Origin: Intestinibaculum porci | Lineage (GTDB): Bacteria > Bacillota_I > Bacilli_A > Erysipelotrichales > Coprobacillaceae | NCBI RefSeq assembly: GCF_003925875.1 | Contig: NZ_AP019309.1 | Span: 372,001 to 436,000, forward strand | Length of the DNA stretch: 64,000 nucleotides | Direction of reading: 5' to 3' | Shown: piece after piece, positions 44,529 through 62,323 of the stretch | Numbering within the stretch: position 1 is the stretch's first letter | Layout of the letters: each line of letters opens with the position of its first letter | The notes under the pieces: generated by a model | Told to the model about the DNA's origin: nothing | Database searches by the model: none | The model's input: only the letters and a program-made list of their open reading frames with translations | Program-made: the position numbers and the translations under genes

Positions 44529-44557
44529 TTGACGAAATAATAAGAGACGTGTATAGT
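44529..44557 (+). promoter_or_regulatory. Promoter of the metY leader
   Basis: TTGACG at 44529-44534, 17-bp spacer, TATAGT at 44552-44557. A seven-pair hairpin CCTACTA-ACC-TAGTAGG (44578-44594) lies at the start of the transcript. Confidence 0.68.
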
Positions 44558-44614
44558 AATGCATGTAGAAAGAAAAGCCTACTAACCTAGTAGGAATTGG
44601 AAGGAGGATGAATA

Positions 44615-44704
44615 ATGAAAAAACTTAAACTTCATTCAATTCATTCTGTTCTCGCCTTAAATCGAATGTGCAGTGAATTGAAAGCACATACTATGATGTG
44701 CTAA
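44615..44704 (+). CDS. 29-codon leader ORF ending in Met-Met-Cys
   Basis: GGAAGGAGG lies six to eight bases before an ATG that opens a 29-residue ORF (MKKLKLHSIHSVLALN, then a Met-Cys pair at codons 18-19, and a terminal HTMMC before TAA). The ORF sits between a good promoter and metY, a sulfur amino acid gene. The Met-Cys codon pairs (ATGTGC at 44666-44671 and 44696-44701) can each pair with GCACAT at 44684-44689, giving two mutually exclusive hairpins. This looks like a ribosome-stalling leader that senses charged Met or Cys tRNA. No T run follows, so the mechanism is not a plain intrinsic attenuator. Confidence 0.6.
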   Translation: MKKLKLHSIHSVLALNRMCSELKAHTMMC

Positions 44705-44760
44705 AATAATCACATACACAAACAAAAATATTTAAGGAAAAACAAGGAGAATAACATATT

Positions 44761-46056
44761 ATGGCAAACAATAAATATCATTTCGAAACTTTAGCATTAC
44801 ACGTAGGACAGGAAGAAGCAGATCCAGTAACGGATTCAAGAGCAGTCCCAATTTATCAGACATCTTCATTCGTTTTCAAAAACTCTGATCATGCCCAGGC
44901 AAGATTTGCCCTGCAGGATGCCGGCAATATCTATGGCCGTTTAACAAACCCAACAACTGATATCTTTGAAAAACGTATCGCTGCCTTAGAAGGCGGGGTT
45001 GCGGCTTTAGCTGTCGCTTCTGGCGCTGCCGCTGTGACTTATGCTGTTAAGAATATTACAAAAGCTGGCGATCATATCGTTGCAGCGAAGAACATCTATG
45101 GGGGAACATTCAACTTATTCGCGCATACATTAGAAGATGATGGTGTTCATACAACATTCGTTGATGCGTTAAAACCTGAAGAATTCGATAATGCGATTCA
45201 GGAAAATACAAAGTTAGTTTTCATTGAAACATTAGGTAACCCTAATAGTGACTGTGTTGATATTGAAGCGATTGCTAATATCGCTCATAAACATGGTTTA
45301 CCATTAATCATCGATAACACATTCGGTACACCTTACTTAATTCGTCCAATTGAATACGGGGCTGACGTTGTTGTTCATTCCGCTACTAAGTTCATTGGTG
45401 GTCATGGGACAACAATTGGTGGTGTCATCGTTGATGGCGGTACTTTTGACTGGGCTGCTCACGCTGATAAATTCCCTGGTTTAGTAGAACCAAACCCATC
45501 ATACCATGGTGTTTCTTTCGCTAAAGATGTCGGCGCCGCTGCTTTCGTGACAAAGATTCGTGCGATCATCTTGAGAGATGAAGGAGCGACTTTATCACCA
45601 GTGCATTCATTCATCTTCTTACAGGGTCTTGAAACATTGTCATTACGTGTTGAAAGACAGGTAGAAAATGCCTTAAAAGTTGTCGATTACTTAAAGAATA
45701 ATCCAAATGTCGAAGCTGTTCATCATCCATCTGTATCAACTGATCCAGAACAGCAGCGATTATATAAGAAATACTTCCCTAATGGCGGTGGATCAATCTT
45801 CACTTTCGAAATCAAAGGTGATGAAAGAAAAGCGAAAGATTTCATCGATCATCTGAAGTTATTCTCATTATTAGCGAACGTAGCTGATGTGAAGTCATTA
45901 GTGATCCATCCCGCAACAACAACACATGCTGAATTAAATGATGAAGAATTAAATGCCGTAGGTATTTATAGAAACTCTATCCGTTTATCAATCGGGACAG
46001 AACATATCGATGATATCATCGGTGACTTAGATCAGGCTTTCGAAGCTGTTAAATAA
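44761..46056 (+). CDS. metY: O-acetylhomoserine sulfhydrylase (aminocarboxypropyltransferase)
   Basis: A 431-residue PLP enzyme of the Cys/Met metabolism family that makes homocysteine from O-acetylhomoserine and sulfide, giving a direct route to methionine. FETLALHVGQEEADPVTDSRAVPIYQTSSFVF, IYGRLTNPTTDIFEKRIAALEGG, the AKNIYGGTFNLF block, and the PLP-lysine segment VVVHSATKFIGGHGTTIGGV are typical of the about 430-residue MetY group, which is longer than MetB/MetC. CAAGGAG precedes the ATG. It is behind the Met-Cys leader ORF and ends at a terminator. Confidence 0.94.
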   Translation: MANNKYHFETLALHVGQEEADPVTDSRAVPIYQTSSFVFKNSDHAQARFALQDAGNIYGRLTNPTTDIFEKRIAALEGGVAALAVASGAAAVTYAVKNITKAGDHIVAAKNIYGGTFNLFAHTLEDDGVHTTFVDALKPEEFDNAIQENTKLVFIETLGNPNSDCVDIEAIANIAHKHGLPLIIDNTFGTPYLIRPIEYGADVVVHSATKFIGGHGTTIGGVIVDGGTFDWAAHADKFPGLVEPNPSYHGVSFAKDVGAAAFVTKIRAIILRDEGATLSPVHSFIFLQGLETLSLRVERQVENALKVVDYLKNNPNVEAVHHPSVSTDPEQQRLYKKYFPNGGGSIFTFEIKGDERKAKDFIDHLKLFSLLANVADVKSLVIHPATTTHAELNDEELNAVGIYRNSIRLSIGTEHIDDIIGDLDQAFEAVK

Positions 46057-58465: not shown

Positions 58466-58542
58466 GCCTGTTTAGCTCAGTTGGTTAGAGCATCTGACTG
58501 TTAATCAGGGGGTCGTAGGTTCGAGTCCTACAACAGGCGCCA
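58466..58542 (+). tRNA. tRNA-Asn (GTT)
   Basis: GCCTGTT/AACAGGC acceptor stem, anticodon loop CTGTTAA, TTCGAGT T-loop, CCA encoded. Confidence 0.97.
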
Positions 58543-58620
58543 GTGGCGGATTGGAGAAACGGTTAACTCACATGCCTTTCACGCATGCATTCACGGGTTC
58601 GAATCCCGTATCCGTCACCA
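58543..58620 (+). tRNA. tRNA-Glu (TTC)
   Basis: GTGGCGG/CCGTCAC acceptor stem (one G-U), anticodon loop CTTTCAC, CCA encoded. It begins at the base directly after the CCA of tRNA-Asn, with no spacer. Confidence 0.95.
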
Positions 58621-58626
58621 CAAAAT

Positions 58627-58702
58627 GGAGGCTTAGCTCAGTTGGGAGAGCGTCTGCCTTACAAGCAGAGGGTCAGCGGTTCGAGCCCGTTAGCCTCCAC
58701 CA
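58627..58702 (+). tRNA. tRNA-Val (TAC)
   Basis: GGAGGCT/AGCCTCC acceptor, anticodon loop CTTACAA, CCA encoded. Confidence 0.97.
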
Positions 58703-58716
58703 TTATTTTTAAGCAA

Positions 58717-58792
<76 letters not shown>

Positions 58793-58796
58793 CAAT

Positions 58797-58872
58797 GACT
58801 CGCTAGCTCAGTTGGTAGAGCATCTGACTTTTAATCAGAGGGTCAGGGGTTCGAATCCCCTGCGAGTCACCA
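58797..58872 (+). tRNA. tRNA-Lys (TTT), copy 1
   Basis: GACTCGC/GCGAGTC acceptor, anticodon loop CTTTTAA, CCA encoded. Confidence 0.97.
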
Positions 58873-58883
58873 TCTTTTTTTAT

Positions 58884-58966
58884 GCGGGTGTGGTGAAATT
58901 GGCAGACACGCTAGACTTAGGATCTAGTGCTTCGGCGTGCAGGTTCAAGTCCTGTCACCCGCACCA
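58884..58966 (+). tRNA. tRNA-Leu (TAG)
   Basis: GCGGGTG/CACCCGC acceptor, anticodon loop CTTAGGA, long variable arm (TGCTTCGGCG), CCA encoded. Confidence 0.96.
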
Positions 58967-58981
58967 TTCACAACATATTAT

Positions 58982-59057
58982 GACTCGCTAGCTCAGTTGG
59001 TAGAGCATCTGACTTTTAATCAGAGGGTCAGGGGTTCGAATCCCCTGCGAGTCACCA
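58982..59057 (+). tRNA. tRNA-Lys (TTT), copy 2
   Basis: Identical over its whole length to copy 1 at 58797; the five bases around TGACTCGC differ only outside the gene. Confidence 0.97.
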
Positions 59058-62091: not shown

Positions 62092-62248
62092 TTCATAGGA
62101 AATGGAGAAATCCTACCGAAGGAGTAACGCTCTCAGGTATCGTCATGATGAGGACTATGAATGGATCACAACTCTGGAGAATCTCAGGAAATGAGTGCCG
62201 AAGGTGCAACGCGTTAAACGCTGAATCTCTCAGGCCAAAGGACAGAGT
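62092..62248 (+). promoter_or_regulatory. Tandem glycine riboswitch
   Basis: Two consecutive aptamers. Aptamer 1 (62092-62161) is closed by TTCATAG/CTATGAA and holds ATGGAGAAATCC, CCGAAGGAGTAAC and CTCTCAGGTA. Aptamer 2 (62171-62248) is closed by ACTCTG/CAGAGT and holds TGCCGAAGGTGCAAC and CTCTCAGGCCAAAGGACAGA, the diagnostic glycine-riboswitch core. No terminator follows, so control of the symporter is likely at translation initiation. In many Bacillota such switches turn on glycine efflux or use when glycine is high. Confidence 0.95.
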
Positions 62249-62323
62249 CATATGGTAAGCAATCATTGTTTATTGTATTTCATGTTATTCTCAAGAGGGC
62301 AATAAGTTCAGGAAGGAATTATT

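Follow-up and report, generated by a model that had tools for sequence, protein, structure and literature searches.

How is homocysteine synthesis by metY controlled in Intestinibaculum porci, and does the short open reading frame (ORF) ahead of the gene take part in that control? We address this question in the window, by which we mean the whole 64,000-nt stretch that was analysed (contig NZ_AP019309.1, positions 372,001 to 436,000), from the 3.2-Mb genome of this member of the Coprobacillaceae, a family that also includes Faecalibacillus and, according to NCBI, Thomasclavelia. Coordinates are those of the window, and the features of metY and its leader are on the + strand. The metY gene (44761-46056) encodes a 431-aa O-acetylhomoserine sulfhydrylase (homocysteine synthase), and matches to TIGR01326 (608.9 bits; cut-off 495.1) and PF01053 (E 2e-133) bear out an initial annotation, which had taken metY to make homocysteine. 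That annotation had also described a leader ORF of 29 codons, preceded by a ribosome site of its own, and proposed that ribosome position within it controls metY. The ORF is real. It encodes MKKLKLHSIHSVLALNRMCSELKAHTMMC followed by a stop (44615-44704), it is preceded by AAGGAGG (44601-44607), relatives carry same-position ORFs bearing RMC, and it ends 56 nt before metY, whose ribosome site, AAGGAG, lies at 44744-44749. We conclude that this leader is probably a translational attenuator of metY operated by ribosome position, and one member of a class of leaders marked by the codon pair CGA-AUG.

Evidence for such a class comes from the upstream regions of other metY genes. We compared 58 metY-bearing genomes from one order of Clostridia, picked without regard to leaders except for the leader-bearing genome at the centre of the sample, G113; 55 of the upstream regions were readable. 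The commonest octamer, CGAATGTG, occurs in 30 of them, where 0.43 occurrences are expected from its rate outside these regions; the next octamer, a promoter element, occurs in 15, and shuffled sequences reach 7. All 30 copies lie in frame within a short ORF led by a ribosome site, and are read as Arg(CGA)-Met(AUG) followed by UGA (14 leaders), UGC (9) or UGU (7), with UGG in none. A frameshift into metY was rejected, as past the AUG the other frames stay open for no unusual length (median 12-13 codons).

The conserved element is a pair of codons at a set position, and the peptide around it is free to change. Residues leading to Met range over NFRNGRM, RCGRM, TGTDRM and LALNRM, with FYNE or SPLFF before Arg-Met in others, whereas the Arg codon is CGA in 36 of 42 such ORFs, as against 6.7% in genes of the same loci. 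The same is found in leaders collected with a codon-neutral pattern for NFRNGRM, where CGA encodes the Arg preceding Met in 22 of 22, while the earlier Arg uses all six of its codons and Gly all four. This Arg codon, the most conserved of all, had not been remarked upon in the initial annotation. Its position is nearly constant as well, with 15-16 codons ahead of Arg in 57 of 70 leaders and 16 in the window, where the core CGA-AUG-UGC (Arg17-Met18-Cys19; 44663-44671) is, from its conservation before metY, the presumed ribosome parking site. A ribosome site, an ATG, 42-45 nt and then CGAATGTG occur together once in the 3.2-Mb genome, at this leader. Judged by sequence comparison, what unites the class is a short ORF in which CGA-AUG stands at about codons 17-18, with UGA, UGC or UGU as the usual next codon.

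The class is common in gut Clostridia, where it precedes about half of the metY genes in one order, and it is also present in Coprobacillaceae and rumen Treponema. The proposal to search before metY orthologues therefore succeeded for the leader ORF itself, which is kept across Clostridia and Coprobacillaceae; the terminal Met-Met-Cys and the GCACAT of the window leader are private to it. Within the family, ribosome-site-led leaders before metY encode LALNRMCGRA in the same genus and LALDRMCISR or SLARMC in other genera, whereas Thomasclavelia- and Faecalibacillus-type genomes have another form, NFRNGRMC or NFRNGRMYC. CGA AUG is common to all of them and UGY mostly follows. Further genera of the family are without this leader before metY, some having a T-box-like leader by eye and others no more than an inverted repeat close to the promoter; T-box-like leaders with a GGTGGTAACACG-type motif were seen by eye before metY in L008, L011, L013, L015 and L021.

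Across genomes of 84,980 species, the pattern TTYMGNAAYGGACGAATGTRY gave 68 matches where we estimate that about 7 would be expected. Most are short ORFs that precede metY by 20-120 nt; their hosts are Clostridia, Oscillospiraceae, Blautia, Ruminococcus and Treponema, and many of the host organisms are metagenome assemblies. Because this set is biased towards GGACGAATGTRY, codon statistics were drawn from the codon-neutral set and from the order of G113 instead. The codon-neutral pattern was found in 9 of 391 genomes of one class (0 for the reversed control) and in 16 of 295 genomes of one order (2 matches for the reversed control). Other genes that follow these leaders are cysK, a LanC-like gene and then cysK, an NlpA/MetQ-type lipoprotein gene, genes for family-3 (cystine-type) and NMT1-type ABC binding proteins, and a UroD-like gene and then an amino-acid ABC system. 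Three Treponema loci (L144, L092 and L065) carry near-identical peptides (LVRENFRNGRMCLCC) before different genes: cysK, the LanC-like gene with cysK, and the UroD-like gene with the amino-acid ABC system. In a subtype found in L203, L206, L209 and L214, a Leu codon comes after CGA-AUG (CCRMLCSR-like peptides) and the leader lies much further away, about 180-200 nt before metY. The metY match at L012:1501-2775 contains one in-frame TAA and is a pseudogene or an assembly error. Matches before nrdF (L061 and L070), and the similar L084 and L085, were read by inspection as out-of-frame coincidences in the end of nrdE, L160 and L164 were discarded as noise because no sulfur gene lies downstream, and a very degenerate Asn-x-Arg-Met-Cys pattern was useless as a search motif.

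We now turn to RNA folding to quantify how a ribosome on the leader would affect the metY ribosome site, whose predicted pairing partners lie within the codons of the ORF itself, a feature also absent from the initial annotation. Across 70 leaders, opening the metY site costs 6.10 kcal/mol in the free RNA, 6.08 kcal/mol when a ribosome is initiating at the leader ORF, and 3.78 kcal/mol with the Met of Arg-Met in the P site. For dinucleotide shuffles the same three states cost 4.39, 4.32 and 4.30 kcal/mol (paired Wilcoxon p 3.8e-7 for the difference). The partners of the metY site fall at -18..-13 and +6..+23 relative to Met and are depleted elsewhere, so a pairing site solely 5' of the core was ruled out. 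Leader tails pair with their own metY site at -5.81 and with those of other leaders at -4.32 (sd 0.21), a preference reached in 0 of 2000 permutations; in the same test, control segments outside the ribosome footprint had no preference for their own site. The distance from Met to metY is never shorter than 51 nt, leaving room for a parked and an initiating ribosome side by side. Together, these calculations indicate that the flanks of Arg-Met would sequester the metY ribosome site until a ribosome parked on this pair releases it.

The window leader RNA folds better than its shuffles (z -2.75). In minimum-energy folds, the predicted partner of the metY leader and ribosome site is GTTCTCGCCTTAAAT (44648-44662), immediately 5' of the core, and opening costs 4.35 kcal/mol with the ribosome at the start of the ORF and 1.46 kcal/mol with it at Arg-Met. 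As the pairing partner adjoins CGA, the conserved Leu-Ala-Leu seen in this subgroup probably arises as a by-product of base-pairing in the RNA. The corresponding shuffle P values for L002, L004 and L007 are 0.073, 0.007 and 0.08. A scan of the + strand of the window leader found no hairpin with a T run, the mark of an intrinsic terminator, between the ORF and metY; together with the predicted sequestration, this favours translational control over a terminator; the initial annotation had suggested translational or Rho-dependent control.

Comparison thus supports the class, the identity and constant position of its codons, its association with sulfur genes and the predicted sequestration of the metY site, and the proposal of ribosome position as the controlling variable holds in outline. 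When Met and Cys are plentiful, ribosomes would clear CGA-AUG fast, and the flanks would again pair with the metY ribosome site, switching metY off. A stall at the AUG, from scarce charged Met-tRNA, or at the next codon, from scarce Cys or slow UGA termination, would park the ribosome over the flanks; the metY site would then be open and more homocysteine would be made. CGA may sensitise the pause, because tRNA-Arg(ICG) decodes it with an I-A wobble pair. We infer the inducing condition from the identity of the downstream genes and the presence of Met and Cys codons. Sensing of Met and Cys at metY is also suggested by a different leader in the same family (L006:1200-1400, genome G011), whose peptide MMPMNMMCCC (MKAYATMMPMNMMCCCESMIMMRRLLVVYE) is rich in both residues. 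A strong hairpin (GGAACAGG...CCUGUUCC) and a U-rich run follow it, by eye and in the fold; the terminator scan made no call there, and on this structure the leader looks like a Met/Cys transcription attenuator.

Several observations weigh against this account. The Met-Cys pair stressed in the initial annotation is not universal: CGA-AUG is kept, but 14 of 30 CGAATGTG leaders have UGA directly after Met, which rules out the Cys codon as a sensor common to the whole class. Taken by itself, the window leader gives a modest folding signal (shuffle P 0.027). About one-third of the leaders have no predicted relief, and the platform is consequently not uniform. Tandem CGA codons in Bacillus subtilis did not impede translation (PMC10454642), which weakens a plain slow-codon reading. 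CGA may be fixed because its I-A wobble pair is slow when it occupies the P site (CGA-first codon pairs are slow in yeast, PMC6301793), because the codon is sensitive to tRNA modification (PMC12588516), or by another constraint.

An alternative that we consider unlikely, while giving it some weight, is nascent-chain arrest, in which the leader peptide would stall the ribosome after Arg-Met in response to S-adenosylmethionine (SAM), Met, Cys or homocysteine, and open metY in the same way. The near-constant length from start to Arg is consistent with arrest, as are the many members that end with UGA directly after Met and the LRxNFRNGRM peptide, which one large subgroup keeps despite synonymous codon variation. 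The peptide at the presumed stall site is conserved in the NFRNGRM subgroup and not across the class. In the others, unrelated sequences (LALN, TGTD, FYNE and SPLFF) precede Arg-Met with CGA unchanged, and a peptide sensor should not require CGA.

The constancy of CGA raises a second question, whether the codons themselves are the sensor. In one version, rather doubtful in our estimate, the CGA-AUG pair would act independently of the peptide: with Arg(CGA) occupying the P site, an I-A wobble pair whose stability depends on sulfur- or SAM-dependent tRNA modification would gate decoding of the AUG and report sulfur or methionine status. In a narrower version, which we find improbable, CGA would suffice. 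The 2-thiocytidine at position 32 (s2C32) restricts CGA reading; decoding by tRNA-Arg(ICG) would hinge on sulfur- or SAM-dependent changes to the anticodon loop, namely this modification, made by TtcA, or the 2-methyladenosine at position 37, made by RlmN, and sulfur status would set the pause. CGA is indeed the fixed element across unrelated peptides. RlmN modifies A37 of tRNA-Arg(ACG), and deleting it lowered decoding modestly in Vibrio cholerae (PMC12588516). Of 10 host genomes tested, 9 have TtcA-like genes. However, every TtcA match falls under the curated cut-off, a leader-bearing Blautia genome has a weak match only, and the fixed AUG and UGN would be unexplained.

The exact switch that the initial annotation had drawn, in which GCACAT pairs alternately with two copies of ATGTGC, fares worse and is very unlikely. 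Its ingredients were correctly placed: Met-Cys at codons 18-19 (44666-44671), the Met-Met-Cys-stop terminus, ATGTGC at 44666-44671 and 44696-44701, and between them GCACAT (44684-44689), complementary to both, with an extra CACAT past the stop (44711-44715). A GCACAU:AUGUGC hairpin forms in the minimum-energy fold, and a CACAT-type complement lies 3' of Arg-Met in 4 of 4 LALxRMC-type leaders examined. But GCACAT and the second Met-Cys are missing in the same-genus L004 (MKLTTKLFTPSLLALNRMCGRA), as are GCACAT and the second ATGTGC in the NFRNGRM group.

A last alternative places control at the promoter. A consensus scan puts a sigma-70-like promoter, TTGACG-17-TATAGT, at 44529-44557, with a predicted transcript start near 44565, and an inverted repeat at this start (CCTACTAACCTAGTAGG; 44578-44594) is a candidate operator for an Rrf2-type repressor; this CCTACT..AGTAGG repeat is similar in L004 and L007 and degenerate in L009, L010 and L022. 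That such a repressor is the sole control and the ORF merely passive has scant probability, for all that an Rrf2-like (CymR/IscR type) gene lies directly upstream of metY in L005 (933-1364), a relative without the leader ORF, because CGA-AUG, its position and its pairing with the metY site would not then be kept, and because in Faecalibacillus the leader ORF sits between cysK and metY.

How does a ribosome-position attenuator of metY compare with known systems? It most resembles in its logic the macrolide-inducible erm leaders (ermBL and ermCL), in which a ribosome stalled on a short ORF opens the sequestered ribosome site of the next gene; here too the leader ORF has its own ribosome site, and computation over the 70 leaders predicts a metY site that is sequestered and then freed. 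It differs in its sulfur amino acid genes, its fixed CGA-AUG stall site and its presumably metabolic signal. Actinobacterial cys-operon leader peptides (PMC1262725) likewise precede sulfur genes, lack a terminator and often have Cys codons near their end. They belong to another phylum and have runs of Cys codons, in contrast to a fixed Arg(CGA)-Met with Cys missing from about half of one order's CGAATGTG leaders. In Rhodobacterales, uORFC-8-2 before cysS (PMC8632094) is also ribosome-mediated, with Cys codons at about codon 14-15, but it uses an intrinsic terminator and controls cysS, whereas control here would be translational and act on metY. TnaC and SpeFL share a small leader peptide, and some members here end at the presumed stall site, with a conserved peptide in the NFRNGRM subgroup; class-wide, it is the synonymous codon that is fixed and not the peptide.

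S-box and T-box leaders control Met and Cys genes in Firmicutes, and the initial annotation had set this leader apart from both. That distinction holds: the Rfam scan gave no match at the window leader and none at 20 Clostridia metY loci, the T-box matches in L009, L010 and L022 are located away from the leader, and the only SAM riboswitch (S-box) found in the genome is at metK. An NCBIfam scan of five leader peptides gave no match. We did not find the class in the open-access literature, and a prior description elsewhere is possible; it is large and apparently undescribed. Translational attenuation by leader ORFs is known, and its sulfur version was not found in Rfam, in NCBIfam for the five peptides or in the open-access text searched. 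That one synonymous codon is fixed, and in a set position, while the peptide is free to vary poses a sharp, testable question, namely what CGA-AUG senses. The answer would explain how abundant gut bacteria regulate their synthesis of homocysteine and methionine, and would yield a compact sulfur reporter.

Elsewhere in the window, seven clustered tRNA genes (Asn, Glu, Val, Thr, Lys, Leu and Lys) occupy 58466-59057, and a glycine riboswitch aptamer (RF00504, 59.7 bits) lies at 62164-62255.
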